A stretch of DNA of 50,845 nt from Deltaproteobacteria bacterium (GTDB taxonomy: Bacteria > Myxococcota_A > Polyangia > JAAYKL01). A program made the position numbers and the translations under genes. The notes under the pieces were generated by a model, which had not been told where the DNA came from, searched no databases, and saw nothing but the letters and a program-made list of their open reading frames with translations. This document shows positions 10,761-33,501 of the stretch, piece after piece. The stretch lies in contig JAUVDV010000035.1 in the NCBI GenBank assembly GCA_030595125.1, positions 1 through 50,845 on the forward strand. Reading direction: 5' to 3'. Positions within the stretch are counted from its first letter, which is position 1; every line of letters begins with the position of its first letter.

Positions 10761-12110
10761 GTGAAACGTTTGCTCTTACTATCGGCGTGCCTGTCGTTTT
10801 GCCTCGCATCGGTCATTGTCCAGGCCCAGGTCCTGCCTCAAAAGCCGCAGGTAGAGACCCTCAAGAACGGCCTCACCGTGGTCACGATGCCGTGGGATTC
10901 GCCCGGGATGGTGTCGTACTACAGCCTGGTTCGCACCGGGTCGAGAGACGAGGTCGACAAGAATCACACGGGGTTCGCCCACCTCTTCGAGCACATGATG
11001 TTCAGGGGCACCAGACGCTTTCCCAAAAAGAAGTACGAGGCAAAGATCCAGGAGTTCGGCGCCGACAACAACGCGTTCACCTGGTTGGATCTCACCTGCT
11101 ATACGATAACCGTGCCGCGAGAGGTCCTGCCGGAGATCGTCGAGATCGAGGCCGACCGCTTTCGCAACCTGCATTACTCGGAAACGGACTTCAAGACAGA
11201 GACCGGCGCGGTCCTCGGCGAGTACAACAAGAACGCCTCCAACCCTGCTCTCATCATGGAAGAGAAGCTGCTCGAGACAGCGTTCGAGCGTCACACATAC
11301 GGCCACACTACCATGGGTTACATCGCCGACGTGAAGGCCATGCCCGGCTACTATCGCTACTCCAAAAAATTCCACCGCCGCTTCTACACCCCGGACAACA
11401 CCACGCTGATCGTTGTGGGGGATTTCGACCGGGCTGCGCTCATCGAGAAAATCGAGGCAGAGTACGGCTCATGGAAGGGCAAACGCCGCAAGACGCGGAC
11501 CAAGACCGAACGCCCCCAGAAGGCGCCCCGCTCGGTGCACGTGGAATGGAGCGGCCCCACCGCCCCCAAGATGACCATCGCCTACAAGATCCCGGCGTTC
11601 GAACCCGGCCCTTACAGCGCCGCGCTCGAAGTTCTGGCCCATCTGGCCTTCGGGAAATCGAGCCCCCTCTATCGCAAGCTCGTGGTCGAGGATCGCAAGA
11701 TCATAAGCATGGAGGCTTCTCACGGAATCTTCGCCCCTCTCACCAGGGATCCCTTCCTCTTCAAGGTGGAGGTTACACTCAGTGAGGAAACCACTTTCGA
11801 CGAGATTCGCGACGCGGTGACTGCGGCCATCGAGGAAGTCGCAAACGGGACGATCGCGGACAATCGCATCGACGCGGTCAAGTCACATGCCAGGTATTAC
11901 TTCGAGCTCGGCCTCGAAACCCCGAACGACGTGGCTGTTTCACTGGCGATGCTCATCTCTGCAACCGGGGATCCCTACTCTCTCGAGGGGTTCGCAAAGG
12001 CGCTCGCGGAGGTGACCCCGGCCGATGTGACCGATGCCGCCAAAAAGTTCCTGACCGAGAAGCGACGCACGGTTGTCACGCTATCCACGAAGGAAGGAGG
12101 CTCGAAATGA
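10761..12110 (+). CDS. Secreted M16 family zinc peptidase (catalytic subunit)
   Basis: A 449-aa pitrilysin-family protease with an N-terminal signal peptide (VKRLLLLSACLSFCLASVIV, cleavage near AQA). The inverted zinc motif HxxEH is H74-LFE-H78 and the third ligand is E154 in AVLGEYNKN, 75 residues later as the family requires. The R/Y region needed for substrate binding is in the C-terminal half. I chose the GTG at 10761 because AAAGGGAGG precedes it by six bases. An upstream start at 10716 has no such signal. The stop overlaps the start of the second M16 gene (ATGA). Catalytic and non-catalytic M16 subunits commonly pair in this way, so a periplasmic heterodimer degrading peptides is inferred. 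Confidence 0.9.
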   Translation: MKRLLLLSACLSFCLASVIVQAQVLPQKPQVETLKNGLTVVTMPWDSPGMVSYYSLVRTGSRDEVDKNHTGFAHLFEHMMFRGTRRFPKKKYEAKIQEFGADNNAFTWLDLTCYTITVPREVLPEIVEIEADRFRNLHYSETDFKTETGAVLGEYNKNASNPALIMEEKLLETAFERHTYGHTTMGYIADVKAMPGYYRYSKKFHRRFYTPDNTTLIVVGDFDRAALIEKIEAEYGSWKGKRRKTRTKTERPQKAPRSVHVEWSGPTAPKMTIAYKIPAFEPGPYSAALEVLAHLAFGKSSPLYRKLVVEDRKIISMEASHGIFAPLTRDPFLFKVEVTLSEETTFDEIRDAVTAAIEEVANGTIADNRIDAVKSHARYYFELGLETPNDVAVSLAMLISATGDPYSLEGFAKALAEVTPADVTDAAKKFLTEKRRTVVTLSTKEGGSK

Positions 12111-14337: not shown

Positions 14338-15918
14338 ATGGATGTATTCACGCCCAAAAAAATGACAGCAGGGTTTGCGCTACTCATCCTCGCCGCTCTC
14401 TGCATGGGTTGTGAGAACGCGATAACCCCTGTCGGCAATGATGATCTCGACGGCGGCTCCGACACGGACACCGACGCGGACACGGATGGCGATACCGACA
14501 TCGATACCGACACCGATACCGACACCGATACCGACACCGATACCGACACGGACACCGAGACGGAACAACCGGATCAGGACTCGGACGGAGTCCCGGACGA
14601 TCAAGACGAATTCCCGACCGACCCGACCGAATGGAACGACAACGACGACGACGGCACCGGGGACAACGCGGATACCGACGATGATAACGACGGCCTCGGG
14701 GACGCGGAGGAACTCGATTACGGCGACGACTGCGTGATCTCGGATCCCATGAGCGCCGACGGGGACACGGACGGGATCCTCGACGTGGATGATCCTTACC
14801 CGCTGGATCCGTTCCCCGAATTCATCATCCAGTCCTCCAGTACCCTGGACACTTTCTACTTCTATCTCTCAAACCAGGACGGCACCTTTCAGACCCAGAT
14901 CGCGTGGCCCGCTCTGTCCATCTCGGACAACTACCGCGCCTTCGCCATCGCCGATTTCGATGAGGACGGGCGCACCGACTTCATCGCTCACAACAACACC
15001 GTTGACTTGAGCGGCGATTACGACATGTACTTCTTCTATCGCACCCTCAAGGAGGATGAGTTCGTTCAGATATACGTTGGAACCACGGACCTGCGCGCCT
15101 CGGGCATCGTCGCGGACGTGAACGACGATAATCTTTTTGATGTTATCACCCACACCAAAACGCCTTCGAGCGGCTACATCGATACAGTCACGGGCTGGGT
15201 CTTCCTCAACAACGGCACCATTCGCACGGCTACCTGCGCGGTGGCGGACTACCCGGACACCTCCTGCGCGTTCACAAAGAGGCAGGCCTTCCACCTGGGA
15301 TCCGGCTCCGTTGTCGACGGCCAGTGGGGGTTCTCGCGCAGCCGTCAGGCCATGGACATCACCGGGGACGACAAGAAGGACATCATTTTCGCAACATACG
15401 CCAGCGGCGGATCTTCCTCGGCTCCGTTGTACCGGCTGAACGGAAACGGCGACGGGACCTTCAGCTCCACCCCTACTCTGGTTCTCACTCACATGTATCC
15501 GGTGAACTCCACGGTATTCGGTGACTTCGACTCGGACGATATCGGCGACGCGATAATGGGATTCGACGATGATGGAGATCCCGGTCAGGGATGGCTGTAC
15601 CTTGGCGACGGAACCGGCGGATTCAACTCCACGGCGGCCGAGGCGTTCGACATCGAGCCCACCATCGAGTCCGGCTCCGATCAGCCCGGCACCACAGGCA
15701 GCGCGCGGATCTACGACTTCGATTTCGACGGCAATATGGATGTCATCCTGGGCCACAGCTACACGGCGGCCTGGTCAGGCCCGTCGATTTTGGAGATCTA
15801 CATGGGTAACGGCAACGGCACTTTCGATTTGCCCTACCAGGTGGGACCGACGTTCCCGGATACGCTGGCCTCCTCCTTCGAGATCCCCCAGCGCCTGTGC
15901 CCCTGGTACACGCCCTAG
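14338..15918 (+). CDS. Asp-linker lipoprotein with FG-GAP/VCBS-type repeats
   Basis: A 526-aa predicted surface lipoprotein. The signal peptide ends in AALCMGC (lipidated Cys), followed by a long DTDTDT-type linker coded in part by a perfect 12-bp tandem repeat (14503-14550). A calcium-binding type-3-like Asp-rich segment follows (DSDGVPDDQDEFPTD, DNDGLGDAEE). The C-terminal two thirds carries repeated FG-GAP/VCBS-like blades with DxDxDG-type loops: DFDEDGRTDFIAHN, DVNDDNLFDVITHT, DFDSDDIGDAIMG and DFDFDGNMDVILGH. This is the pattern of a secreted beta-propeller that binds calcium. The ATG at 14338 follows AAAGGAGAA. Its stop is one base from the stop of the convergent gene. The ligand and role are unknown. 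Confidence 0.85.
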   Translation: MDVFTPKKMTAGFALLILAALCMGCENAITPVGNDDLDGGSDTDTDADTDGDTDIDTDTDTDTDTDTDTDTDTETEQPDQDSDGVPDDQDEFPTDPTEWNDNDDDGTGDNADTDDDNDGLGDAEELDYGDDCVISDPMSADGDTDGILDVDDPYPLDPFPEFIIQSSSTLDTFYFYLSNQDGTFQTQIAWPALSISDNYRAFAIADFDEDGRTDFIAHNNTVDLSGDYDMYFFYRTLKEDEFVQIYVGTTDLRASGIVADVNDDNLFDVITHTKTPSSGYIDTVTGWVFLNNGTIRTATCAVADYPDTSCAFTKRQAFHLGSGSVVDGQWGFSRSRQAMDITGDDKKDIIFATYASGGSSSAPLYRLNGNGDGTFSSTPTLVLTHMYPVNSTVFGDFDSDDIGDAIMGFDDDGDPGQGWLYLGDGTGGFNSTAAEAFDIEPTIESGSDQPGTTGSARIYDFDFDGNMDVILGHSYTAAWSGPSILEIYMGNGNGTFDLPYQVGPTFPDTLASSFEIPQRLCPWYTP

Positions 15919-15919
15919 C

Positions 15920-16879
15920 TTACGGATTCTGGCGTTGAACGCTGATCGCCGTGAATATCAATCCCACCGAAACCTCCTGACAAACGCCAAATGGTCCGCA
16001 ATCGATGTCGGCAATAGCGAGCAGAGTAGTGTTCAGGGCGGCCTGTTGAACAGGATCCAGCTCCAGCTCGATGGAGAGAATATCCTGCAACAACACCCTG
16101 TCCACGGAGCCACAGATCAGACCGCTTTCAATTTTTCCGTTCAACATCTGGGTATCCGGAGCCTGCGTTATCTCTCCGAGCATTCGTCCATCCTGCAGGG
16201 TCATGGTGGTAGGCGAATCTCCCAACGGTATTGTTACCGAAAAGTCTGCCGTCGGAGTAAGCAGGAATGAATCCACAATCGAGGTTCCGTCGATGTTCGT
16301 GTGTGGAGGCTCCACAACCCAGACAGTACCGTGCCCGCTGAAAAGCTCCGGCGGCACACCGGCATCATCCACGCCTCCGTCGTCGCCTCCCGCATCCGGC
16401 GCATCCAGCGCGGCCTCGAATACCGAGAGGGTGACATCTGCGTCGTCTGTGAAACTCTCCACGTCAAACAGGCCCATGGCGACCAGTATGTCCCCCGAAG
16501 CCAATCCGTCACTCATGGCCACATTGGGATCTTCGTCGATGTAACCCTGATTGTAGAGCCACGTGGCCAGGCCGCCGAGTTGATTGTCCACCTGCGAATC
16601 GCCGTCGAGATCGCAGCCCTCGGTGCTATCTCCAATTTGCATGTAGTCCAGCAGGAAATACGCATCGGCGAACGACCCGGTGTCCGTGTCTGTATCGGAG
16701 TCGGTATCCGTGTCCGTATCAGTGTCAGAATCCGTATCAGTATCCGTATCGGTATCCGGCCCCGAATCCATTCCCGCGTCAACGGTTTTGGAACTGTTGC
16801 TCGAACAACCCGCGCACATCAACAATGCAAGAAGAAACAGGACAACACTGGCTTTCAAGCTCGCAGAAATTTGACGCAT
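15920..16879 (-). CDS. Asp-linker lipoprotein of unknown function
   Basis: A 319-aa lipoprotein whose signal peptide ends in LLMCAGC, followed by SSNSS and a long Asp-Thr/Ser repeat linker. The mature domain begins near GSFADAYFLLDYMQIG and shows no family I recognise. It has a second short acidic insert (DAPDAGGDDGGVDDAG), and its C-terminus is mixed alpha/beta, ending with paired cysteines (DIDCGPFGVC). The start at 16879 is chosen because it opens directly onto a basic n-region and hydrophobic core. The upstream 24 codons are not signal-like. The ribosome binding site is weak. It converges with the FG-GAP lipoprotein gene, whose stop is one base away, and diverges from another Asp-linker lipoprotein at 17011. 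Confidence 0.75.
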   Translation of the reverse strand: MRQISASLKASVVLFLLALLMCAGCSSNSSKTVDAGMDSGPDTDTDTDTDSDTDTDTDTDSDTDTDTGSFADAYFLLDYMQIGDSTEGCDLDGDSQVDNQLGGLATWLYNQGYIDEDPNVAMSDGLASGDILVAMGLFDVESFTDDADVTLSVFEAALDAPDAGGDDGGVDDAGVPPELFSGHGTVWVVEPPHTNIDGTSIVDSFLLTPTADFSVTIPLGDSPTTMTLQDGRMLGEITQAPDTQMLNGKIESGLICGSVDRVLLQDILSIELELDPVQQAALNTTLLAIADIDCGPFGVCQEVSVGLIFTAISVQRQNP

Positions 16880-17010: not shown

Positions 17011-17739
17011 ATGAGAAATTACCAGGTGATTGTATTGACGTTCCTGGTCATGATATCCGCTTTTACCGGATGCAATGACGATCCGCCCTTCGCAATGGGG
17101 CTCCCTCCTTCGACAGACAGCGATTCCGATTCGGACTCCGACACCGATACAGACTCAGACACCGACACTGACACCGACACTGACAGCGACACTGATACGG
17201 ACACCGGTCCCCCGGCGTGTGCGGATTCCTTCAACCCTGCCAACGAATGGGGCGGTGCGTGGCGGGAAGAAGATCCTGACACGGATCCCGACCCCGATCC
17301 CTCCGATGATCCCTGGGTCGTGTACTGGAACGCCGAGGAAGGGGTCACCGACGCGCCTCCCATGTACACCGTCAAGTGGTACATGGACTTCTCCGCGTGG
17401 GAGAGCTACAGCGCGCCGATGATACCGGAGACCGCCAGCTTCACCGGGGGAAATTCGAGCTGGGATACCTGCTGGTACTGCCTGTTCCTCGACGAAAACA
17501 TCACCTGGGACACAAGTGACGACTGGAGTCTGGTCGGCAAGGATGCACGCTACATGGCCTACGAAGGCGACATCGATATCACCTCCATCGACGTCAACGG
17601 AATGTTCACGGCCGAGATGACCGACGTCTATCTGAGGGAGGTCAACGAGGACAACGACATCGTTACCAACGGCAAGGTGGTTTGTTGGGATTCAATCAGC
17701 TTCTCGGTGGACCTGAGCAGCACCGATGAGGGTCGGTAG
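17011..17739 (+). CDS. Asp-linker lipoprotein of unknown function
   Basis: A 242-aa lipoprotein: signal peptide with lipobox SAFTGC (C20), then a linker of Asp alternating with Ser or Thr (~35-65). The compact globular domain is rich in Trp and Asp (EWGGAWREEDPD, WYMDFSAWESY, WDTCWYCLFLDENITWD). I recognise no family; a beta-sandwich is plausible from the alternating hydrophobic pattern. The ATG follows GAGGAGAAAA. Twelve bases after its stop is the stop of the convergent cysC gene. It is probably on the cell surface. Confidence 0.8.
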   Translation: MRNYQVIVLTFLVMISAFTGCNDDPPFAMGLPPSTDSDSDSDSDTDTDSDTDTDTDTDSDTDTDTGPPACADSFNPANEWGGAWREEDPDTDPDPDPSDDPWVVYWNAEEGVTDAPPMYTVKWYMDFSAWESYSAPMIPETASFTGGNSSWDTCWYCLFLDENITWDTSDDWSLVGKDARYMAYEGDIDITSIDVNGMFTAEMTDVYLREVNEDNDIVTNGKVVCWDSISFSVDLSSTDEGR

Positions 17740-20785: not shown

Positions 20786-20876
20786 GCCGCGCCCTGAATA
20801 GAGCGCGGTCAGGATGAATAAAGCCCGATGGGCTTGCGCGGAGCGCATCCTGACCGCGGGTTTTACACCCGCGGGA
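20786..20876. repeat. REPIN-like pair of inverted REP sequences
   Basis: Two palindromes in inverted order share the tags GGTCAGGATG and CATCCTGACC. The left hairpin has CCGCGC/GCGCGG arms, the centre carries AAGCCCGATGGGCTT, and the right hairpin is CCGCGGG-ttttaca-CCCGCGG. This is the two-REP arrangement called a REPIN. It lies between the kbl stop and the promoter of the next lipoprotein gene and may also terminate kbl. Confidence 0.7.
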
Positions 20877-20900
20877 CACAAAACAGGACAATCCAAATCG

Positions 20901-20909
20901 TGGTATACT
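20901..20909 (+). promoter_or_regulatory. Putative extended -10 promoter
   Basis: TGGTATACT (TG-N-TATACT) lies 27 bases upstream of the ATG at 20936 and ~15 bases before its Shine-Dalgarno AAGGAGG. It matches the box at 14274-14282 before another Asp-linker lipoprotein gene. Confidence 0.5.
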
Positions 20910-20935
20910 GCCTTCTCCCAACGAAGGAGGCCCCC

Positions 20936-21931
20936 ATGAAATACATACTGTTCATGCTGCTTGCCCTCGGGCTCGCCACCCTGCCCGCTTGCGGAGACGA
21001 ATCCACCGGCGGCGGCGGCGATACGGACACCGACGCTGATTCAGACACGGACGCGGACTCCGATTCGGACACAGACTCCGATTCCGATACGGATTCCGAT
21101 TCCGATGACGACCCGGGCGCCGGCCTCGTGGGTTTCTGGGGCGGCCTGTCCGTCGGCGCTATCGTGGCCCAGACGGGCATCATCGGCATCGGAGATCAGT
21201 GGTCATCCACGCGCGGCTGGCAACTGGTGGAGATAACCTCCGACGGCGCCGGCAACCTCACACTCACCGAGACCCCGTGCATGGTCAAGGTCAAGACGCA
21301 CGACGGGCTCATCCATCCGGTCGTATCGATTCCTCAGCAAACCGTGGATCACATGCCTGCAGTGGTGCGCCAGGTTACCGTGGACGGAAGCGGCGCCGGC
21401 ACCGAGTTCAATTCGGATCTGGTATTCACCGTGAGGGGCGCAAACCTCTGCGACGTGCAGGGCGGCCCATTGCCGGTGGGACCTGCGGCCGATCCCGACT
21501 CCACCTCCTGCGATCAGGCATGCACCGACTCCCACTGCGATATGGACGAGGACAACCATCCTGGAATCACCTCGCACATGGAAGCGGCGGGTATTCTCAA
21601 CTGCGATATCTACGCCGTATCCCGCTCATGGACCCAGCTGGACGGCGAGGTCTCGGACGCGGACACGATCACGGGAACCCATATCAACGACGGCTCCGAG
21701 ACCAATGTCCTGGCGGCCACACAGGCTCTTTGCGCAAGCAGCTCCGCCACCGTCGATGAAGACGGGTGCGCCGCGCACAAGTATTTCAGGTTACTGCGCC
21801 TCGACAGCGGAAACACATGCGCCGACGTGCTCTCCCTCACCGACTGCGACGAGGACGAGCATTCGTGTGACTCCAACGCCGTTCAGCCCCTCGATCCCAA
21901 CAACGACACCTTCAACGGCCCCGAGTGCTAG
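20936..21931 (+). CDS. Asp-linker lipoprotein of unknown function
   Basis: A 331-aa lipoprotein. The signal peptide MKYILFMLLALGLATLPAC provides lipobox LPAC, followed by a Gly-rich turn and an Asp-Ser/Thr/Ala linker (~28-60). The mature domain opens GLVGFWGGLSVGAIVAQ and has eleven or more cysteines, mostly in the C-terminal half (SCDQACTDSHCD, DVLSLTDCDEDEHSC), suggesting disulfides in the periplasm or on the surface. The beta-rich opening resembles generic secreted binding domains, but I recognise no family. The ATG follows AAGGAGG with ideal spacing. It is a single gene with its own promoter. The SEC-C gene follows after 37 bases and may be read through. Confidence 0.8.
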   Translation: MKYILFMLLALGLATLPACGDESTGGGGDTDTDADSDTDADSDSDTDSDSDTDSDSDDDPGAGLVGFWGGLSVGAIVAQTGIIGIGDQWSSTRGWQLVEITSDGAGNLTLTETPCMVKVKTHDGLIHPVVSIPQQTVDHMPAVVRQVTVDGSGAGTEFNSDLVFTVRGANLCDVQGGPLPVGPAADPDSTSCDQACTDSHCDMDEDNHPGITSHMEAAGILNCDIYAVSRSWTQLDGEVSDADTITGTHINDGSETNVLAATQALCASSSATVDEDGCAAHKYFRLLRLDSGNTCADVLSLTDCDEDEHSCDSNAVQPLDPNNDTFNGPEC

Positions 21932-21968: not shown

Positions 21969-23483
<1,515 letters not shown>

Positions 23484-23496
23484 GGATCTCTATCTA

Positions 23497-23549
23497 CCGC
23501 GGGGTGAACCCCACGGCAACGATGTCCATAGGACAAGTCCTGCGGACTA
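23497..23549. repeat. REP-like double palindrome
   Basis: Palindrome CCGCGGGGT-gaa-CCCCACGG is followed after ~18 bases by AGGACAAGTCCTGCGGACT. The layout is that of 32016-32071: a GC-rich hairpin, then a short CAAG-x-CTGCGG palindrome. It lies directly after the SEC-C gene. Confidence 0.55.
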
Positions 23550-23612
23550 TGTTTTGCACGGCTTGTCGGCCGCCCAGCGCGCCAGCGCTAACGCGTCCAT
23601 CGGAGGAGCCAA

Positions 23613-23745
23613 CCCCGGCGCGTCAACCAGCGACGGAAGCCTCCGCGCCAGCTGCGACAACCGATCCCGCCGCTCCATTTCGGCTTTCTGATCCTCATCG
23701 TCCATGGGGAGGACGATAGAGCCTTGGGGGCTGTGATGCAATGGG
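23613..23745 (-). repeat. Direct repeat, copy A, flanking the toxin-antitoxin pair
   Basis: An imperfect ~133-bp sequence repeated in the same orientation at 24595-24727. Read on the minus strand both copies can encode a similar peptide (DRLSQLARRLPSLVDAPG here), so the repeat is probably the remnant of a duplicated short gene. No good ribosome binding site precedes either reading frame, and I do not call it an active gene. Otherwise 23484-23841 contains only this repeat and the REP-like element. Confidence 0.65.
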
Positions 23746-23841: not shown

Positions 23842-24237
23842 TTACTTTGGAGGCTCGACGACCGGACAGAGGCCAAGGCCGTCCGAGCGACTTACGAACC
23901 GTCGGTCAAAGGTCATCATTCTGTCCGTATGCTGGCAACCCGCAAGATGCAGAGCGTCGGCGAAGTCCAGGCCACTCTCGTGCCAGTCAAACGCCAATGA
24001 TACCCTTTTCGGATCGGATAGCCGAACGTTGGGAAGCCCAATGAGCAATCGAAATGCGCCCGATATATCCGCAGCAGAGAAGGAATACGCGTAGCGCAGA
24101 ACCCATTCGGTCTCGATAAGCACGGTCTCGCAGAGGAAGACCGCACCCTCGGAGAAGCACTGAACCGAACGCTTGAACTGTCCTTCGTCGTCCCTGGTAA
24201 GCAGACGAACGACAACATTGGTGTCCACGGCGATCAT
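23842..24237 (-). CDS. vapC: VapC-type PIN-domain ribonuclease toxin
   Basis: A 131-aa PIN domain protein of standard VapC length. The acidic metal-binding residues are D5 (MIAVDTNVVVRLL), E42 (LIETEWVLRYA), D94 (GLDFADALHLAGC) and D111 (MTFDRRFV). VapC toxins cleave tRNA or rRNA when freed from their antitoxin. The ATG overlaps the stop of the antitoxin gene by 4 bases, the normal antitoxin-first order. The pair sits between two direct repeats at the edge of the defence-type island. The catalytic set is complete, so the toxin is probably active. The target RNA cannot be predicted. Confidence 0.9.
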   Translation of the reverse strand: MIAVDTNVVVRLLTRDDEGQFKRSVQCFSEGAVFLCETVLIETEWVLRYAYSFSAADISGAFRLLIGLPNVRLSDPKRVSLAFDWHESGLDFADALHLAGCQHTDRMMTFDRRFVSRSDGLGLCPVVEPPK

Positions 24238-24473
24238 GACCGGCGCTCCCGTGCGCCCCGCTCGATGGCGGCCTCCATATCATCGAGCGTCCGGGCCGGA
24301 CCATCGTTATATAGGCAGCCTGCGACATCCTCAAGCCGGGTTTGCGCCGTAGCAGCGCGGGAGCGCTCTTTGTCGACGGGGAACATGATGATGACCCTGG
24401 TGTTGGGCTTGACGTCGAGTTTCTCAAGCGGCCTTACTGTCTCGCCGTCATATACTCCTTCTATCTCCCGCAT
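24234..24473 (-). CDS. Antitoxin, AF2212/DUF104-like
   Basis: A 79-aa protein. The N-terminal half (EGVYDGETVRPLEKLDVKPN, then TRVIIMFP) matches the AF2212-like/DUF104 antitoxin fold, a small beta-structured DNA-binding element found with PIN toxins. The C-terminal half is a charged helix expected to bind and block VapC. It is not an AbrB-type VapB. The ATG at 24473 follows AACAGGAGGTGATCGG, an unusually strong ribosome binding site that fits the need for excess antitoxin; a longer frame from 24497 lacks this. Autoregulation with VapC of the promoter upstream is expected from the family. Confidence 0.85.
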   Translation of the reverse strand: MREIEGVYDGETVRPLEKLDVKPNTRVIIMFPVDKERSRAATAQTRLEDVAGCLYNDGPARTLDDMEAAIERGARERRS

Positions 24474-24594
24474 CCCGATCACCTCCTGTTGCGTCACAAC
24501 TACTCAACTGTAACTATACACGATTCCAGCCTCTTCGACCGGGGAAACTCCTGGCTCATCGTCTCGGGCGACTCGTCGCAGTCCTTCGGGGAGC

Positions 24595-24727
24595 ATCCCG
24601 GCGCGTCAACCAGCGAAGGCAACCTTCGCGCCAGCAACGACAGACGATCCTCGAGTTCTATTTGAGCTTTCCGTTCCGCATCTTCCATGAGGAGGACGAT
24701 AGAACCTGGGGGGCTGTGATGCAATGG
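24595..24727 (-). repeat. Direct repeat, copy B, flanking the toxin-antitoxin pair
   Basis: Second copy of the ~133-bp repeat at 23613-23745. The minus-strand reading DRLSLLARRLPSLVDAPG is shared with copy A almost residue for residue. The interval 24474-24807 holds this copy and the presumed toxin-antitoxin promoter; nothing else was recognised. Confidence 0.65.
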
Positions 24728-24807: not shown

Positions 24808-25617
24808 TTATTCCTGTCCTTGAAAAAAGGCCAAGTGTGATCGCAGTGCGGCACATGCAGAACCGACCAGAATACCTAGAGCGTCATCCAGTTGTATTTC
24901 GCACTCTCGGAAAACAGTTCGAAGATCATCGCGGGGTTCGGCCAACCATCCTTCACCGCCCCTATGATTAATGAATGTAACACCGTCGTCCATCGCTTGT
25001 TTCTCGACTCTCTCCCACCCTCCTTCGGAGATTCCAAAAGCAGAGGATGCAAGGGAACTCTGAAAGAAATCGACACCATTTGCGTATCCTGCATCGTGAA
25101 CGAAATGGTTACGGATTGCATATAGGACACTGATCGGCCAACCATAGGATTCTCTTAGGGAGTGAAAGAACGGTGCGGCAACGGATTCCGCTGCAGATTT
25201 ACGCCGAATGAAATTGGGTACGAGTTTAGGAAGTTCCCGGTCGTTACTGCATTTTTCCCGAGTACACACTACCTGCCCAACCATGCCAGTAAGGCTATCA
25301 GCGAGTGCCCACATTGAAGTTAAATATGCTTGCACACCGATGAAACGTGCGTGCCTAAACTTCACTGAGATTGTGCCCAAAAGAACGCGACCTTCGCTAT
25401 CGACATTCAATTCGAGGCGGTCCAAATAATGAAAAGCATCCGCCCGAGCATCAAGGGTGGCAAGCCAATGTTCAATACTGTTTTGGTATGACACAATCCT
25501 ACGAAAAGATTCCCAGGTCTTCTCTGACATGTCGCCGCGCTGGCTTCCCAGCGCTTCGTCAACTTCGCGGAGTTTTCCTTTAGCGTCATTAAGCCGTTCT
25601 TCTAGAGATTTGGTCAT
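24808..25617 (-). CDS. HEPN-like protein coupled to the STAND NTPase (putative defence effector or regulator)
   Basis: A 269-aa, mostly helical protein with no signal peptide. Residues 169-174 read RNHFVH inside the helix VLYAIRNHFVHDAGY, which fits the R-N-x3-H signature of HEPN ribonucleases and of HEPN-like scaffold domains. The N-terminal ~60 residues are charged helices, possibly a coiled coil, and residues ~65-95 form a short beta segment. I recognise no named family. The ATG overlaps the stop of the 1335-aa NTPase gene (ATGA), so the two are made together. HEPN domains in defence loci usually cleave tRNA or other RNA upon activation. That role here is inferred from one motif and the context. 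A dimeric non-catalytic HEPN fold is the main alternative. Confidence 0.6.
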   Translation of the reverse strand: MTKSLEERLNDAKGKLREVDEALGSQRGDMSEKTWESFRRIVSYQNSIEHWLATLDARADAFHYLDRLELNVDSEGRVLLGTISVKFRHARFIGVQAYLTSMWALADSLTGMVGQVVCTREKCSNDRELPKLVPNFIRRKSAAESVAAPFFHSLRESYGWPISVLYAIRNHFVHDAGYANGVDFFQSSLASSAFGISEGGWERVEKQAMDDGVTFINHRGGEGWLAEPRDDLRTVFRECEIQLDDALGILVGSACAALRSHLAFFQGQE

Positions 25618-28600
25618 TCCCCTCGATCCTCCTTCGCCTGTTCTTTTTGGTCTCGGAGTTCTGCCTCTGCCACTTCAAGGTTCCAGACCCAGAATGGTTG
25701 GAATACGGGGTCCTCTTCGTCATCCAGAAGTTGTTGGGCAGTGCGGACACTTTCAATGAACAACTCAGGCACTTCACCACGTGTGCTGGACCAGGACTTC
25801 GAACCTTGATCTGTTAAAGCGCGGAATGGTGAATACCGTTCTTCGGGGGTTAGCTTGTTTGAGAACACAAGAACCGGCTTCGCTATTATTCTCCACACTT
25901 GACTACCCGTTTCGTACATGCCTCCAATTCTCGCCAGTCGGTATACGTCGTCTTTTTCGGTTGCTGACTCTATCCGTTTGACCAACTCATGCGGAAGTAC
26001 GTGTCCTTCTGGATCGACATCGTGGAGAATACTAGGCAGATCGTAGCCGACGGTAGTTGAATCATCGACGAAATCGACGATATTTTTCACCGCCTCTATC
26101 GTCCCTGCAACACTGACCTGTGCGGCGGTGATAGGTAAGACGTATCGGCTTGGGCGTGAGTGATGGCCTATTGCGTGAAAATTGCTATATCCTCTTTCCA
26201 CCTCTAGATCCCGCCTACTTGTAAGGATCTTGAGTAACCACGTGACCGGCATTCGGCCATGGAGTTTCAGGATTTCTTCGAAATACCATGAAACCATATG
26301 ATCAATACCATCGAGGTCGGGAATTCTCAGCAATTGGTCCATCATCCACGGAACAGTGCTCTTTGGAAATTCGGATGGGTCCCTTTCGCGGAATGTCCAG
26401 TACATGGACTCAACGAGTACATGAACCGCAGAGACAATCTGTTCAGTCGGTATTTTATCAAGCGCTGTTTCCAGGGTGTCGCAAAGGCCCTCCCAGTCAT
26501 GCTCTATCGCCCATGAAATTATGGTGATGAACAATGGGCCTCTGTCGTTGTTCAGGAAAAGATCACCAATAGGTCTTAGAAATTCCAGTTCCGCAACGGA
26601 GATACCATCAATTTTTCGTGCGGGTGCGTAGTGAGCGTAGATCCCGCCCAGAAGAAGGATTCGAGTGCTATCATCGGAGCAGTTATCAAGAAGTTCTTTT
26701 ATGTAATCTAAAGTAGTTTCTTTCTCGGTCTCTCTGATTTTTTCTGTCCATCGGCGTGCGGCTACCACTGCGAATTTCTTCCTGGGGGTATCATCCGATC
26801 TTGCGAGTGTATTCCGTACAAACGAGCGAACGCCGTCATTCTCTTGGGCATGCTCTCCGAGACGCCACGCAACACTTTGTACCAGAGGCAGATCCCGTGC
26901 ACTGAAAAATCGTTGGGCTCTGTCAAAAAAAGCGCTGATGGACTTCTCGTCCTCTTCTTTCAAAAGAAGCATGGCCTTGGAAACAGCCGCGTCATCCGAT
27001 TGCTTACTGCTTCCTTGCCGCCGTAAAGGCTCGAACTCGATTGCTAAACTGTCGCCTTTGTAGAGTTCCTCCAAGTTATTAGCTGCTTTTTTTAGTTCGT
27101 CGTCTTTCTCAAACTGGATATGCCAAACCCACAGTGCACGTGCGGCAGACAGTTCTTCCAGTTTATTCTCCCTTCCTCCTAGAGTACCCTTAGCCCAAGT
27201 AAGGTTTTCCAAAAGTATGGAGCGAAACTCACCTTCCGCCTTTTCTCCCTGGAGTAGGCATCGATTGACGGTAGCGTGCGCTTCCGAAACTATTTTCCAC
27301 AGAACTATTCTAGAATCGATGTGTAAGTTTTCGTCTTCGAGAAGCTCCTTCATCCGCTGAACCAGTGAAACGCGTGTTTCCCACGCGGGTTGGCCCGGAC
27401 CAATGGTGTATTTGTTCCAATGTATTGCCCGATCGTCGCTCCAGCTTACGTGTCGCTCAACCGCTATTGCGGGTATTATTAGAGACTCCAGAACACTTGC
27501 AAGAGTCGATGTCAGAGATTTAAACTTGACGCGATCAAGAAGCTCCAATCCGACAACCTGCGCTGCGGCGTGGAAGTCACCCCAGAAGTGAGGGCTACCC
27601 TCCAGTGTACGTCCGATAAGCCGTCCGGCCCGTTTCCCATCGTTGGGAAGGCCTCTGGGCAGTTGACTACCGATGTCGGCTTCGGCCTCTGACAAGTCGC
27701 ACAACTCGCGTAGAATTTGTGTCCTCTCATCTTCTGTCTGTGCACCAAAAGCGGCGTGATATACGGCCCATGCAAGCGCCAAAACGACGTCATTTTGAGT
27801 GATTTCGCGGCTACGCAGGAGGCCCTCAACAATTTCTGCATCTAGCGAAGAAGCACGAAGACTGCTGCATAGGGACACAGTATCTGAAGGACGAACTGCT
27901 GCTACATCTATAAGAACTTCGGCAACTAGTTGCCCGATGGGTGCCTTTATCTGTGATAGCTTCTCTTGAATTCCTTCGAAGAATGGACTTAGCAGCGGTA
28001 CGGGATTATTCGAAAGTCCTAGAATCATCTCCGTGCGAGCTACAGCGGTTAACACAGACCGGTTGGTGGAACTGACGGTGCCACTCAAGACAGACTGAAG
28101 TACTGCGGTTATCAGTCCTTTAGCATCATCGGACGGTATTACAGGCTGGTCGCCGTGACCAAGGTCAACCGATAACCACTTCATCAGAAGATGGTCTCGC
28201 AGAACATCCGGTTTGATTTCAAGCAGTCGCTTTCTGGCTCCGCGTTCCACTATAGCGCGACGGTCGATTAGATTAGAAAGCAGCTGTTTTGTTTTGGTGT
28301 CTGTGTCGACTCCACTGCCTTCTCTCAGGAGATTGATCGAGGCAGGATCCTCTCTGTTTACCGGGCCAATCAGCGATATCCAACGAAGCAGATACCGAAT
28401 TTGATCACGTGGGAACTGGTTCTGCTGGTTAACCACCTCGTTGAGGTATTCCTCAGCCACCTCTTCTGCCTCTGTGGGAACTTGGGACAGGTCTCCATGA
28501 CTTTCCAGTAGATATATTGCGAGGGTCAGCCAAATGGGATGCTGTGAAAACAGTTTCGATAGTTTTTGCGCGGCGTTCTTGCGCCAGGGCTCGGGCTTAC

Positions 28601-29621
28601 TATTCAGCTTTCCAGACGAAAGCAAATCGAAACACATCTCTTCAGCCGAAGGTGTCGACAACTCAACCACAGGCAATTCGTCTACCTGGCGTTTTATCCG
28701 TGGTCCCCGAAGAAAACGAAGGACGGGATCTTTGGGGGAGCGCACAGCTACGCACACTTTCCAACCTGCCGCTCGTCCAACATGACTTCCCAGCTGTTCT
28801 GTAAGTAGTTTCAGGATTTGGTCGGTCTCTGGTTCATCGACGATGAGCAAAGTTCGACGCTCTGGGACGATCCCTTGAAACCAAGCGTCGGACATCTCCA
28901 TGGTCGTGATATTTGCCCATAAGACCTGCCAAGCGCCGTCAGCAGCGATTTTTTCGCCGGCTTCAACGACTAGCCGGGTTTTACCGATACCGCCCGTTCC
29001 GTGGACCAGAAGGAATTGTTTTTCTGTGGAGAGAAAATCCGTAATCTTCTCTACTTCAATTTCACGACCGAAACACTTCCCGATTTCAGCACGTTGTAGG
29101 TAGGGCTCGCTTTGCGGCAGTTTCTCTCGAACTTCTGGGAGAGTGAGGACGGTTCGTGTTGTATCTCCAAAGTAGGAATTGCTGACCTCGGGGTACTTAT
29201 CCAGAAGTGCATTAAGATCGGCCCTTTCCCAGTAGTCAATATCCAGATTCAGTGCTGAGAAGACAGGAACTAACTCGTCTTTCCATCGCTGAAAATCTGT
29301 TGAATTGAAGGTCGCGTTCGTTACCAAACGCCAGTGGGTGATATCCTTCCACTGCTCGTATCGGCTGTTGCCGGATTTGCGATATTCGGAGATTTTGGAG
29401 GCTTCTTTTTTGGCATCTGCTATTGCTTTTGAAGCAGATTCGTCCTCGTGGTGCTTCGCTTGATAAACGAGGGTTCCATCGCCTGATCGCGCGTCTTGGC
29501 CACCATCTTTGCCCTGTCGCCCAAACAATGCAGCTTTAGAGTCTTCAAAAAAAACAAGCGTGGTTGCCAACGCTTCGAACATCGCGCCGCTTGTTATCTT
29601 CCCCCAATTTCTATCAGCCAT
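25614..29621 (-). CDS. PD-(D/E)XK nuclease-STAND NTPase protein (Avs-like antiphage candidate)
   Basis: A 1335-aa multidomain protein. Residues ~10-150 form a restriction-endonuclease-like (Mrr/Cap4-type) domain with E16, D43 in GKDGGQDARSG and Q54-A-K56 in LVYQAKHH, the E-x-D-QxK active-site pattern. Residues ~180-450 form a STAND/NACHT-like NTPase with Walker A G208TGGIGKT215 and Walker B TLLIVDEPE (D262, E263). The remaining ~850 residues are helical, probably a TPR/HEAT-like sensor. This order (nuclease, NTPase, repeats) is that of Avs antiphage proteins, which recognise conserved phage proteins and then degrade DNA. The ATG follows AGAGGTC. Its composition is clearly poorer in G+C than neighbouring genes (22 of 60 bases at 27061-27120), a sign of transfer. 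Coupling to a HEPN-like gene is unusual. Confidence 0.82.
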   Translation of the reverse strand: MADRNWGKITSGAMFEALATTLVFFEDSKAALFGRQGKDGGQDARSGDGTLVYQAKHHEDESASKAIADAKKEASKISEYRKSGNSRYEQWKDITHWRLVTNATFNSTDFQRWKDELVPVFSALNLDIDYWERADLNALLDKYPEVSNSYFGDTTRTVLTLPEVREKLPQSEPYLQRAEIGKCFGREIEVEKITDFLSTEKQFLLVHGTGGIGKTRLVVEAGEKIAADGAWQVLWANITTMEMSDAWFQGIVPERRTLLIVDEPETDQILKLLTEQLGSHVGRAAGWKVCVAVRSPKDPVLRFLRGPRIKRQVDELPVVELSTPSAEEMCFDLLSSGKLNSKPEPWRKNAAQKLSKLFSQHPIWLTLAIYLLESHGDLSQVPTEAEEVAEEYLNEVVNQQNQFPRDQIRYLLRWISLIGPVNREDPASINLLREGSGVDTDTKTKQLLSNLIDRRAIVERGARKRLLEIKPDVLRDHLLMKWLSVDLGHGDQPVIPSDDAKGLITAVLQSVLSGTVSSTNRSVLTAVARTEMILGLSNNPVPLLSPFFEGIQEKLSQIKAPIGQLVAEVLIDVAAVRPSDTVSLCSSLRASSLDAEIVEGLLRSREITQNDVVLALAWAVYHAAFGAQTEDERTQILRELCDLSEAEADIGSQLPRGLPNDGKRAGRLIGRTLEGSPHFWGDFHAAAQVVGLELLDRVKFKSLTSTLASVLESLIIPAIAVERHVSWSDDRAIHWNKYTIGPGQPAWETRVSLVQRMKELLEDENLHIDSRIVLWKIVSEAHATVNRCLLQGEKAEGEFRSILLENLTWAKGTLGGRENKLEELSAARALWVWHIQFEKDDELKKAANNLEELYKGDSLAIEFEPLRRQGSSKQSDDAAVSKAMLLLKEEDEKSISAFFDRAQRFFSARDLPLVQSVAWRLGEHAQENDGVRSFVRNTLARSDDTPRKKFAVVAARRWTEKIRETEKETTLDYIKELLDNCSDDSTRILLLGGIYAHYAPARKIDGISVAELEFLRPIGDLFLNNDRGPLFITIISWAIEHDWEGLCDTLETALDKIPTEQIVSAVHVLVESMYWTFRERDPSEFPKSTVPWMMDQLLRIPDLDGIDHMVSWYFEEILKLHGRMPVTWLLKILTSRRDLEVERGYSNFHAIGHHSRPSRYVLPITAAQVSVAGTIEAVKNIVDFVDDSTTVGYDLPSILHDVDPEGHVLPHELVKRIESATEKDDVYRLARIGGMYETGSQVWRIIAKPVLVFSNKLTPEERYSPFRALTDQGSKSWSSTRGEVPELFIESVRTAQQLLDDEEDPVFQPFWVWNLEVAEAELRDQKEQAKEDRGE

Positions 29622-29720: not shown

Positions 29721-29867
29721 TTAAGCCTTCAATTGGTTACCGGCAGCATCCGGGTGACCGATTCCGAGAACGTCGCACAGCTCGGTGAGGAACAGATCCT
29801 TGTTCTTCTGCTCGGCAGCCTCGGATTTGGACCACCTATCGATGAATGCGACTACATCGTTTGACAT
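29721..29867 (-). pseudogene. N-terminal stump of a type IIG/MmeI-like DNA methyltransferase
   Basis: A 48-codon frame starts MSNDVVAFIDRWSKSEAAEQ and continues FLTELCDVLGIGHPDAAGN before stopping. This segment resembles the conserved N-terminus of very large class I SAM-dependent DNA methyltransferases (type IIG, MmeI-like) of restriction or related defence systems. Nothing of the nuclease, methyltransferase or target-recognition domains follows, so it is a truncated relic. It lies 100 bases upstream of the STAND gene on the same strand and marks this locus as a place where defence genes come and go. The match is made from memory of the family and rests on a short sequence. Confidence 0.6.
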
Positions 29868-29967: not shown

Positions 29968-30300
29968 CTGGAATACGTCACCCAACGCGCCAATTTCTTA
30001 AAAACGAGTTTTTTTCCCAGCCGCTCTAGGAAATGTTTTCGTCAACGTAGAATTTCCACGTCTCCCAACGTGCGGATTTTTCAAAAACGAGATTTTGCCC
30101 CAGCCGCTCTAAGGGAATTATTCAAAAACGTGGTTTTTTCCCAGCCGCTCTAGGAAATGTTTTCATCAACCTGGAATTTCCACGTTGCCCAATGGGGAGT
30201 TTCTATTTCGACCTGGAATTTCCACGTTGCCCAATGGGGAATTTCTATAACAACCTGGAATTCTCACGTTGCCCAATGGGGAATTTCTTCAGAAACGAGA
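29968..30300. repeat. Array of 40-42-bp tandem modules of two types
   Basis: About eight units in ~333 bp. The type B module begins CTGGAATTTCCACGTTGCCC and is repeated exactly every 42 bases at 30171, 30213 and 30255. Degenerate B copies lie near 29968 and 30049. The type A module carries CCCAGCCGCTCTAGGAAATG and occurs near 30016, 30099 and 30140. Between copies the spacing drifts to 40-41 bases, so no single reading frame crosses the array. Whole units repeat and no unique spacers lie between them, so it is not a CRISPR. Function unknown. Confidence 0.85.
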
Positions 30301-30764: not shown

Positions 30765-31037
30765 GACGAGAGAGGTTCACCGCTCGCTATCGAGCAGGTC
30801 ACCGCTCCCCATTGAGACGGGGGGTTCTCAACATTGAGAAGGGAGGTTCTCAATATTTAGACATTCGGGCTCTTTCCCATGTTCCGGTGATATCGTCGGT
30901 TTCCCCCAATAAGCAATGATCAAGGGTTGTTCGGCGAAAAATCCGGTCAACAGCGGATGCTGGCACGTTTCTTCCAATGCAGCGGCGCATCAACAGCCGC
31001 ACAAGGGCGGCCAAATCCAAAGTAGAGGAGATGAAAG

Positions 31038-31985
31038 ATGGAAGAAACAATTGGAAAGTTAACAGCCGGAACAGAGAAGGGAGACGAGACCATGTGTCAC
31101 GAGGAACAGACCAAGGAAGAGATCGAGGCGGCCGAGAACGAGGTGCAAAAAGAGGATTTCCAGGACGAGGACCTGGATAAGTCGTTGCAGAGTATATTGC
31201 CGGAGGTGACGGCGATCCCGGAGCACGAGGTTCGAAAGTACATCGCGAGCATTGTGTACGTGGTGGCGCTCTCAATGCGTATCCTGAGGGCATTCACAGA
31301 AGACCGCGAAAGAATAGCGTCCCTGTTCTCGCCGCAGGGGTTTTTGCTAAAGACATATGACGATCTCATCGATCGCATCAAGGGACTCTGGCAGGCCGAT
31401 GTCCTTTTAAGGCAGGGTGTGGAAGGGAAGAGACCCGGTCGGGAGCTGATGGAACGAGCCCGCTGGGCATGGCAAAAACTGATTCGGGACGCCGAGTACG
31501 TGTTCGGAAACGACCCGGATCGAAAGGAGATCGTCGCGGATCTGCGCGCTGGCAAGGGCACGCTCAACAGGGCCGACGACCTTTTGTCGGTATCGGTGCT
31601 GTTCTCAAACAACTGGGATGAGATCAAGGATCGTTGCAACGTTTCCAGGGAGGAGATCGACGAGGCGAGGTCTCTTGCCCTGCGCATCATCGAGATCGTG
31701 AGCCCGCAGGTAAACGTGAACGAGCTGGAAGAACTGCGCGCCGTAAGAAACGGTGCTTTCGAGTACTTGAGGAGGGGCATCGACGACATCCGCGCCGCTG
31801 CCGCGTTCGCGTTCCGTGACGAGCCGTCCCGCCTCAAGAACTATCCCAGCCTCTTCTCGGGCAGGAAGAACCGCCGCCGAACGACAAAGAACGGCAACGG
31901 CGCAACCGATACACCTGTCGAAGCCGTACAGCCCATCATCGTTCCGGAGCAACCGGAACCGATCATCCAGGCCGTTCAGTCCTGA
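31038..31985 (+). CDS. Alpha-helical protein of unknown function
   Basis: A 315-aa cytoplasmic protein predicted almost wholly helical, with many charged residues. The N-terminal ~50 residues are acidic and probably disordered. The core (~55-265) includes EHEVRKYIASIVYVVALSM, LIDRIKGLWQADVLLRQG and EARSLALRIIEIVSP. The C-terminal ~40 residues form a Pro/Glu-rich tail (PIIVPEQPEPIIQ) after a basic stretch (SGRKNRRRTTKNG). No catalytic motif or membrane segment is visible, and I do not recognise the family. The ATG follows AGAGGAG. REP elements lie on both sides, and base composition is like the backbone rather than the island. A structural or adaptor role is only a guess. Confidence 0.7.
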   Translation: MEETIGKLTAGTEKGDETMCHEEQTKEEIEAAENEVQKEDFQDEDLDKSLQSILPEVTAIPEHEVRKYIASIVYVVALSMRILRAFTEDRERIASLFSPQGFLLKTYDDLIDRIKGLWQADVLLRQGVEGKRPGRELMERARWAWQKLIRDAEYVFGNDPDRKEIVADLRAGKGTLNRADDLLSVSVLFSNNWDEIKDRCNVSREEIDEARSLALRIIEIVSPQVNVNELEELRAVRNGAFEYLRRGIDDIRAAAAFAFRDEPSRLKNYPSLFSGRKNRRRTTKNGNGATDTPVEAVQPIIVPEQPEPIIQAVQS

Positions 31986-32015
31986 TCGAGCCCTATTCCC
32001 ATAGCCCTTCTCAAT

Positions 32016-32071
32016 CCCGCGGGTATAAAACCCGCGGCCACGATGCGCGTCGCGCAAGCCCTGCGGGCTCA
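32016..32071. repeat. REP-like double palindrome
   Basis: CCGCGGGT-ataaa-ACCCGCGG is followed after ~20 bases by AAGCCCTGCGGGCT. The pair resembles 23497-23549 and the right half of 20786-20876. It lies between the 315-aa gene and the FHA regulator. Confidence 0.65.
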
Positions 32072-32112
32072 AAACACTTGATGAAGGCCGGCGTCATCTA
32101 TATATCCGACCC

Positions 32113-33501
32113 ATGGGCGGCGACCACACGAGCACATACAAAGATGTAATCTTCGGCGCGACCGGGGCCAAGCCCGAACCGGTCGTACTGGTGGCCCACG
32201 CGCCGTCCATTGCTGCGGGCGCGGATCGCATCGCCATCGGAGATTCCATTGTCATCGGCAGGGAAAAGGGCTCGGATCTCCAGATAATGGACGCCAACAC
32301 ATCCAGAAACCACCTTTCAATAACGAGCTACAAGCGAGGCTGCAAGATAGAAGACCTGGGCAGCAAGAACGGCACCTACCTGAACGGCAAGCTCATCAAG
32401 AAGGCCAAGAAACTGCCGGACCGGGCGATAATCCGAGCCGGCAATACCATCCTGGTCTTCCTTTCGGACGGCGGCGACATCCTCTCTTTTCGGGAAACCG
32501 ATAACTTCGGGATAGCGGGCAGGTTTCACACCGCCGTGCTGGCGAGAAAACTCCTCGAAGGCACCATGTCGGGCCGCAGCCTGCTGCTCGCGGGACCGTC
32601 CGGCACCGGCAAGGAACTCGCGGCCCAGGCGTTTGCGGAGATCACAGGGAAAAAGCTCGTCATTCAGAACGCGGCCAGGTTCTCGTCGCAGGAAGAGGCC
32701 GCCGCCACGCTGTTCGGCGTCGGACAGAAGGTCTTCTCCAATGTGGAAGCAAGACCCGGCTACATCGAAAAGGCCGACAAGGGGGTGCTGTTCCTCGATG
32801 AAGCTCACAACCTGCCAAAAAGGGTTCAAAAGAGCCTCCTGCGAGTAATAGAAGACCGAGAGCTCGCCCACATAGGCGAGACGCAGACAACACCGGTGGA
32901 TGTGCGGTTCGTATTCGCCTCCAATGAACCGCCGCCGTCCTTCTCCCTCGCGAGAGATCTTCTGGCCAGGCTCAGAGTGGTTACAATCCCTCCCCTGACC
33001 GACCGACCGGCCGACATCCCGAGCATCTTCGATCATGTGCTGGAAAAAGCTCTCGAGCGAACGGGTTCGCCCGCCGGACCGGTGCTGTCGCTCCTGACCG
33101 CAAGCCATTACGAATCGCTCATGCTGGACGGATTCAAAGAAGACAACGTGAGAGGCCTGATAGACATCGCGGACAGGATCGCAACCCGCATCGCCTCGGG
33201 AACCGAGCCCTCAGAAGCGATTTTCGAGATCTTCTCCGAACGCTACAAGACAGAATACCCGTCATTCGAAGAGGCCGAATACGACGAAATGGGAAAAGCG
33301 ACGGCGGAGATCAGGCGGCCGGTCGACGCGACGGAAGACATCTACATGATAGTTGAAGACGCGTACCACAATCACGGCGGCAACGTCTCCGCCATCGAAC
33401 GAGAGCTTCGCGAAAAAGGCATCAACTATTCCAGGCGCAAGATATCCAGGATCCTGGACAAGATCGCCCTCCCCCGCGCCAAGAAGACCAGAAACCATTG
33501 A
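32113..33501 (+). CDS. FHA-AAA+ regulator (sigma-54 activator-like, GAFTGA absent)
   Basis: A 462-aa regulator. An FHA phosphothreonine-binding domain (~44-118) shows IGREKGSDL, SRNHL and NGTYLNG. A bacterial enhancer-binding-type AAA+ domain (~135-370) follows, with Walker A GPSGTGKE and Walker B VLFLDE. A Fis-like helix-turn-helix lies at the C-terminus (NHGGNVSAIERELREKGIN, then YSRRKISRIL). The L1 loop that normally reads GAFTGA is replaced by QKVFSNV, so productive contact with sigma-54 is doubtful. FHA-type regulators are numerous in Myxococcota and respond to Ser/Thr kinases; no kinase is in the window. No Shine-Dalgarno is visible before the ATG. tatA follows after 67 bases. Confidence 0.87.
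   Translation: MGGDHTSTYKDVIFGATGAKPEPVVLVAHAPSIAAGADRIAIGDSIVIGREKGSDLQIMDANTSRNHLSITSYKRGCKIEDLGSKNGTYLNGKLIKKAKKLPDRAIIRAGNTILVFLSDGGDILSFRETDNFGIAGRFHTAVLARKLLEGTMSGRSLLLAGPSGTGKELAAQAFAEITGKKLVIQNAARFSSQEEAAATLFGVGQKVFSNVEARPGYIEKADKGVLFLDEAHNLPKRVQKSLLRVIEDRELAHIGETQTTPVDVRFVFASNEPPPSFSLARDLLARLRVVTIPPLTDRPADIPSIFDHVLEKALERTGSPAGPVLSLLTASHYESLMLDGFKEDNVRGLIDIADRIATRIASGTEPSEAIFEIFSERYKTEYPSFEEAEYDEMGKATAEIRRPVDATEDIYMIVEDAYHNHGGNVSAIERELREKGINYSRRKISRILDKIALPRAKKTRNH

Follow-up and report, generated by a model that had tools for sequence, protein, structure and literature searches.

A 50,845-nucleotide stretch of DNA from a Deltaproteobacteria bacterium (assembly GCA_030595125.1, contig JAUVDV010000035.1), hereafter referred to as the window, carries two adjoining genes, designated A and B, that together resemble an antiphage system. 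Gene A (25614..29621, minus strand) encodes a 1335-amino-acid (aa) protein, in which a PD-(D/E)XK-type nuclease domain (residues ~1-150) is followed by a STAND/AAA NTPase (~182-480) and a helical C-terminus (~500-1335) presumed to be the sensor. Gene B (24808..25617, minus strand) encodes a 269-aa HEPN-like helical protein, of which the RNxxxH motif comprises R169, N170 and H174 and an acidic residue, D107, lies in the second core helix. These two open reading frames and their overlap of 4 bases had been described in an original prediction made from the sequence alone, and both were borne out; the stop of A and the start of B share the bases ATGA (25614..25617, minus strand), with GGAGGA, a ribosome-binding-like sequence, upstream. 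It is near certain that A and B constitute a conserved module, and the module is very probably one of defence.

The conservation of the pair was evaluated by genome scans that scored only the best first-look candidates per genome (e.g., 8 in the class scan for B and 2 in the 377-genome scan for A), whereby misses are possible. B was recovered by single-sequence search in 7/377 genomes of the phylum, its own genome included, and by profile in 8/317 genomes of the class, two of which, G411 and G517, hold only remnants (a rearranged one and a 45-aa fragment, respectively), leaving six full-length copies. It was further found in 3/221 genomes in the phylum of a Planctomycetaceae record (G590), where a weak match inside a 954-aa protein of G709 was not counted, in 1/216 genomes in the phylum of a Spartobacteria record (G595), and in six of the ten genomes picked from A matches. 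Taken one per genome, full-length B genes number 15 (the window, G006, G089, G198, G246, G137, G109, G418, G419, G435, G593, G590, G603, G595 and G596) and are spread over Myxococcota, Planctomycetota and Verrucomicrobiota, with the reservations that the ATGA start in G590 (locus L043) is out of frame with the rest of B, and that B in G137 (L014) reaches the contig end. The search of other genomes for a conserved pair, as proposed in the original prediction, came out in its favor: the gene directly upstream of full-length B is A in all 15 cases, G006 and G198 showing the C-terminal part alone at a contig end. Moreover, B begins before A has ended at every one of the 15 junctions (ATGA at 13, 8 bases at 2), and GGAGG stands shortly upstream of the B start at 10 of them; from the overlapping start and the ribosome-binding-like sequence, we infer translational coupling of the two genes.

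A itself occurs in 8/309 class genomes, and a wider scan gave matches in 23/377 genomes, most of them to the NTPase region alone and not counted as A. All six class genomes with full-length B are among the eight with A (Fisher 2.4e-11, genomes taken as independent), and the pairwise distances of A and B correlate with r = 0.95 over 78 pairs, a value reached in none of 5000 permutations. A Planctomycetaceae pair clusters with Myxococcota pairs in both the A and the B trees, from which it appears that A and B move between phyla together. A broken A followed by a broken B was found by profile on the Nostoc azollae plasmid pAzo01 (L100:2-2817), adding Cyanobacteriota, and these decayed remnants, still in order, suggest that the pair can move on plasmids. 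Among PLSDB plasmids, B was not found by single-sequence tblastn at E 0.01; phage records gave no A match at E 1e-5, one viral contig resembles A in its first part only, and one sequence pattern retrieved no B from viral contigs.

In the protein encoded by gene A, the motifs are located where the original prediction had placed them, namely E16, D43 and Q54-A-K56 in the nuclease domain, Walker A GTGGIGKT at 208-215 and Walker B LLIVDEPE at 258-265. These motifs are no accident of sequence: D43, Q54 and K56 are invariant in all 16 scorable relatives of a 17-row alignment (one row ends before the site), and G208, G213, K214, R216 and D262 in all 17; E16, however, is not fixed, the position being E, Q or N among relatives. 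Pfam matches within residues 182-274 indicate a STAND-type NTPase (AAA_16, E 4.6e-7; nSTAND_NTPase5, 5.3e-5; NB-ARC, 0.0013), all of them below the curated cut-offs, and the N-terminal part weakly matches two PADLOC models, PDC-S73 (E 1.5e-5) and an Argonaute-associated model (E 2.2e-4). A structure model of residues 1-1200, built from 16 sequences (mean predicted local distance difference test score, pLDDT, 85.0; predicted template modeling score, pTM, 0.59), renders residues 1-150 as helix-strand-strand-strand-helix-strand, the order of elements in PD-(D/E)XK enzymes, with D43 in the second strand and Q54/K56 in the third; past the NTPase, residues ~498-1200 are mainly helices with pLDDT mostly above 80.

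The top Foldseek match of this model is Avs4 bound to a phage portal protein (E 2.9e-10, 1537 alignment columns), followed by SAMD9, a wheat resistosome, mouse oocyte lattice proteins and EfAvs5. In a second structure comparison, the NTPase domain alone fills the matches (Clp, Cdc6/ORC, EfAvs5 and resistosomes), and a profile of 7 A relatives searched against PDB sequences places Avs4 first (E 0.0079 over 78 profile positions) with PEX1 close behind (0.013). The earlier view of A as a nuclease-STAND protein of the Avs kind is thus supported by its NTPase matches and by Avs4 leading both the fold and the profile lists. As modeled, A has an Avs4-like receptor architecture, yet is too distant for a named Avs type; DNA cleavage, oligomerization and sensing would be expected of it by analogy with the families concerned. 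A housekeeping role was considered and rejected, since A occurs in so few class genomes, sits in a low-G+C slot and matches no housekeeping family at a significant score. Two other proteins share parts of A: one, with an open frame of 1330 aa, is encoded both here and by a sister genome (G000:C83:40444-40824, L016; G244:C55:5722-6099, L031), its NTPase region being ~30% identical to A 153-277, and in Amylibacter marinus (L058:8977-11331) a 784-aa open reading frame resembling A residues 1-301 is followed by an unrelated 470-aa open reading frame.

In B, the motif reads RNHFVH at residues 169-174, and R169, N170 and H174 are invariant (13/13) in an alignment of members that spans three phyla and reaches down to 18% identity; together with D107 they are among its ten invariant columns. 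RNxxxH likewise stands in 13/13 of a second set, in which L075 and L078 replace L010 and L012, making 15/15 distinct proteins when both sets are combined. A model of B from 5 sequences (mean pLDDT 78.7, pTM 0.80; helix 44-71 counted as the first core helix) places RNxxxH at the end of helix 148-175, the third core helix, and D107 in helix 87-117, the second, while residues 118-147 between the two form a poorly predicted irregular insert. The HEPN layout given in the excerpt of PMC3710099 comprises an Rx4-6H motif in which a polar residue follows the R, its location at the end of helix 3 or the start of the helix 3-4 loop, an acidic residue in helix 2 and an insert between helices 2 and 3, and all four points fit the motif and predicted model of B. 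In a second structure comparison made with the B model, chains of HepT-MntA complexes, taken as HepT by their length, reach Z 8.0-8.1 over 123-125 of 130-133 residues, and Csm6 reaches Z 7.4.

B is therefore likely a HEPN ribonuclease (RNase), an assignment based mainly on motif, spacing, invariance and modeled layout, and RNA cleavage would be expected of it by analogy with that family. The HEPN-like partner named in the original prediction is thus supported by the invariant motif and the layout, its fold resting on the predicted model. None of the three outcomes that would have contradicted that prediction came about: the pair is conserved elsewhere, the NTPase matches no housekeeping family at a significant score, and nothing spoke against the putative HEPN fold of B. 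The window B protein is unmatched in Pfam, PADLOC and NCBIfam (PHROGs were not searched), which points to an unannotated HEPN-like family that would escape defense finders relying on such models. An annotated family was sought for the 13 members and set aside, as these gave only weak single-member matches to Pfam Peptidase_M15_3, WXG100_2 and DUF3613 (E ~0.04) and to PADLOC Csn2 (E 0.0032).

In the interpretation preferred here, which is judged to be about evenly balanced between right and wrong, the two genes make up an antiphage module in which an Avs4-like receptor with its own deoxyribonuclease (DNase) controls a second, HEPN RNase effector. The helical C-terminus of A would recognize a phage product, the STAND NTPase would then oligomerize, and the N-terminal PD-(D/E)XK domains would be brought together to cut DNA; B, which would be translated from the shared transcript in coordination with A, may be silenced by A, or activated only through A, as a second, RNA-directed effector. 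The DNase site of A, the RNase-type site of B, the overlapping genes and the lack of any full-length B without A fit a receptor controlling a second effector, the least certain parts being the presumed control of B by A and the role of B as effector rather than regulator. In a more specific form, which falls somewhat short of an even chance, an NLR-like receptor would unleash two nucleases each time it recognizes its target, the DNase that it carries itself in cis and the coupled HEPN RNase in trans, the RNase serving as a second strike or safeguard that is lost where the DNase suffices.

Several observations weigh against this interpretation. B is missing at 5 of the 20 loci with a readable A 3′ end. 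Whole-chain template modeling scores between A and Avs4 are low (0.16-0.19), so that the domain orientation of A is not matched, and the AVAST models of PADLOC 2.0.0 (2023) matched neither A at E 1 nor, at E 0.01, a single one of the 7 members aligned. For B, no HEPN model of Pfam matched any of the 13 members at E 0.1, HEPN families being very divergent, and Foldseek returned no match at E 0.001. Unrelated helical bundles equal or beat HepT against the B model (Z 7-9; gp41 constructs 8.2-9.1), and when its profile was compared directly with that of one HepT-like protein, the motif segments aligned at E 0.017 but with a probability of only 2.6%. Furthermore, the distance correlation of A and B is partly due to shared descent, and two branches differ in order between the B tree and the A tree.

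The five loci without B are G286 (L040/L052), G355 (L041), L049, L055 and L057. The 20-locus count excludes two loci whose sequence stops within A (L054 and L056), the locus holding the rest of the G006 copy (L048), a 160-aa A remnant (L042), the decayed copy L100, and two loci at which the similarity is confined to the first part of A (L058 and L059). No B match was found by profile anywhere in the genomes of L049, L055, L057 and L054, and G286 and G355 are absent from the genomes with a B match in the class profile scan. Missing behind a quarter of A genes, B is not obligatory and looks accessory to A. L049 falls in a supported group of 8 (100/98) in which the remaining 7 rows carry B, and its A keeps the typical EERGE end, which suggests that B was lost there. 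On the A tree, which has long branches meeting, the presence or absence of B requires 4 changes, at least 3 of them forced by well-supported branches, with a mean of 3.8 for shuffled labels; the 4 changes indicate repeated gains or losses of B, in a direction that is not proven. At L057 (9508-10041, Fibrobacteraceae), an unrelated 177-aa open reading frame, possibly another small partner, begins 32 bases after A, and relatives of its product occur in five plasmid records, one beside a BrnT/BrnA pair, and in one phage record; no Pfam or PADLOC model matched this protein. It was considered as a second HEPN protein in the place of B on account of its RNYNLVKH, but the R is not conserved in three plasmid relatives, where only WW..N..KH.R is, and it is retained as a lead only.

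The persistence of A without B at these five loci, the position of L049 within a B-carrying group with its EERGE end kept, as after loss of an accessory part, and the finding of full-length B nowhere apart from A (15/15) would also suit a B that regulates or adapts A, either as an inhibitor that leaves on infection or as a co-sensor presenting phage RNA or protein, with the DNase of A as the sole effector. This alternative is regarded as rather unlikely, for RNxxxH and D107 are invariant in 13/13 members, as expected of a nuclease site, whereas the excerpt of PMC3710099 interprets HEPN domains devoid of every conserved polar residue as inactive, binding versions. The overlap of the genes and the restriction of full-length B to loci with A also accord with a toxin-antitoxin-like arrangement, in which B is a toxin that A restrains and frees on infection, and the nuclease of A is secondary; the B remnants of G411 (rearranged) and G517 (45 aa) lie without A in the stretches examined. 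Such an arrangement is improbable, given that the catalytic D43/Q54/K56 of A are invariant, that A survives alone, as an antitoxin would have little reason to do, and that the receptor gene comes first and B second.

B belongs to no recognizable family, and its HEPN call derives from motif, layout and a modest fold match, which leaves a small chance that B is an auxiliary component using its HEPN-like site otherwise, such as in nucleotide or tRNA binding or in a modifying activity; the invariant motif and the HEPN layout speak for the RNase preferred above. That A and B are unrelated neighbors traveling together in a defense island would agree with the varying of the other neighbors between loci, but it is contradicted by the 15/15 full-length B genes behind A, by the overlapping starts and by the three phyla, and is hardly credible.

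In bacteria, STAND receptors of the Avs type correspond to the NLRs of plants and animals, and their effector is usually described as part of the receptor, Avs1 excepted. Avs4, a single-gene system, has a nuclease at its N-terminus, followed within the same chain by a STAND NTPase and a long helical C-terminal part. Avs4 (AVAST type IV; 8dgf) thereby shares with A the nuclease, the STAND domain and the helical C-terminus, and it is the best structural and PDB profile match of A; the sequence similarity, in contrast, is marginal. Against this background, a conserved partner gene, overlapping that of the receptor and keeping its RNase-type site intact, makes it testable whether one receptor drives the destruction of both DNA and RNA, and what a second weapon adds.

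The original prediction had considered a HEPN-like partner to lie outside the standard description of Avs proteins, a claim that stands only in part. Avs1 (AVAST type I), according to the excerpt of PMC12799240, resembles A-B in having a STAND receptor with a second nuclease in an adjoining separate gene, the MBL nuclease Avs1a, which is activated by the Avs1b protease; yet there the partner gene lies upstream and encodes an MBL-fold enzyme that a trypsin-like protease switches on, whereas here the partner is the downstream, HEPN-like B, and no Pfam protease model matched A. HEPN-STAND fusions were reported in 2013 (excerpt of PMC3710099), and these, such as Npun_F6454, together with fusions of HEPN to inactive STAND modules, likewise join HEPN to STAND (excerpts of PMC3710099 and PMC8195603); they form one chain, without PD-(D/E)XK as described in those excerpts, whereas in A-B the HEPN-like protein has a gene of its own, next to that of a nuclease-STAND receptor.

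HepT of the HEPN-MNT toxin-antitoxin systems (SO_3166) resembles B in its RNxxxH motif, which reads RNIAVH in the excerpt of PMC4621449, and in a comparable helical core (Z 8.1); the matched HepT chain, however, has 133 residues and a nucleotidyltransferase as its partner, in contrast to the 269 aa of B and its partner A. Type 1 BREX-related (DUF499/Hma) systems, as presented in the excerpt of PMC12839542, are similarly ATPase-centered and DNA-targeting, with an N-terminal HEPN as the proposed last-resort effector, but they rely on a different ATPase and include a methyltransferase and a helicase. The validated systems of DefensePredictor include PD-(D/E)XK, P-loop NTPase and HEPN domains (excerpt of PMC13092281), and the A-B family may overlap with them. 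Among the Creative Commons-licensed PMC papers listed, judged by titles and abstract openings, none deals with a PD-(D/E)XK-STAND receptor accompanied by a separately encoded HEPN protein. The new element appears to be the pairing of a PD-(D/E)XK-STAND receptor with a HEPN-like protein that is encoded by its own gene in presumed translational coupling.

The surroundings of A-B in the window favor the defense setting proposed originally, through a low-G+C slot, an apparent exchange on another contig and defense-type neighbors. G+C per kilobase is 0.485-0.517 across 25-31 kb as against 0.522-0.628 in the remaining kilobases, which agrees with the low G+C noted before. Just upstream of A lies the methyltransferase stump of the original prediction (29721..29867, minus strand), which is real: it is an MmeI-N-like fragment of 48 aa, the first 43 residues of which equal those of an open reading frame on another contig of this assembly, C113, itself short at 137 aa and matching MmeI_N at E 1.8e-9; the divergence after residue 43 marks a likely recombination edge. 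The toxin-antitoxin pair claimed beside A-B, outside the module, consists of a PIN-domain toxin (23842..24237, minus strand; Pfam PIN E 2.8e-11), which is well supported, and a likely antitoxin (24234..24497, minus strand), of which the AF2212-like match (E 0.001) is weak and below the curated cut-off. Two copies of a 131-nucleotide repeat, R1 (23614-23744 and 24597-24727), flank this pair, and non-coding tandem repeats, R2 (29975..30290, in units of 42 and 83 nucleotides), lie upstream of A; R2 is also present on two other contigs of the assembly (L094:7952-8733 and L095:5056-5593), with short pieces in the sister genome G244 (L093 near 8446-8508).

Contig C113 carries an 84.5% identical copy of window 21969-23573 along with the same R1 and R2 repeats, and has a HepT-like toxin gene in place of the PIN pair and a PDC-S11-like candidate defense protein in place of A-B; by this comparison, A-B appears to sit in an exchangeable slot within a defense island. 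Copies of the window flanks 21969-23573 and 30791-33431, 84-91% identical, are found on C113 and C171, and could be a segmental duplication or a second strain in the metagenome-assembled genome. The R1 copies on C113 (L094:10064-10125 and 10882-11077) surround the HepT-like toxin gene as those of the window do the PIN pair, an arrangement that looks cassette-like, no recombinase search having been made. As R1 frames small toxin-antitoxin cassettes, its copies were considered as integron attC sites, but the folds of four copies, judged by eye, are without an obvious shared hairpin (no integrase was looked for). The sister genome G244 was considered as an empty site and set aside, given that its contig with a 76%-identical (protein) neighbor gene ends ~1.1 kb beyond that gene, in a stretch without a DNA match in the window, and thus allows no clean before-and-after comparison.

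At other loci, the neighbors of A include, by profile, HsdR (L013), YhcG/PDC-S02 (L011) and an HmaC/DUF499-like ATPase (L053). PADLOC was applied to ten hand-picked proteins (eight genes flanking A loci, the L057 open reading frame and the C113 protein), of which seven matched something and three nothing; the matched neighbors are not all evidence of defense, the one at L040 being a sigma-54 activator. Elsewhere in the window, short-period repeats of Asp/Ser/Thr-type codons were observed at 14459-14558, 16678-16758, 17116-17206, 21023-21106, 42628-42745 and 43400-43480, and the one that was checked, 21023-21106, sits in a predicted lipoprotein-like open reading frame (20828-21931).

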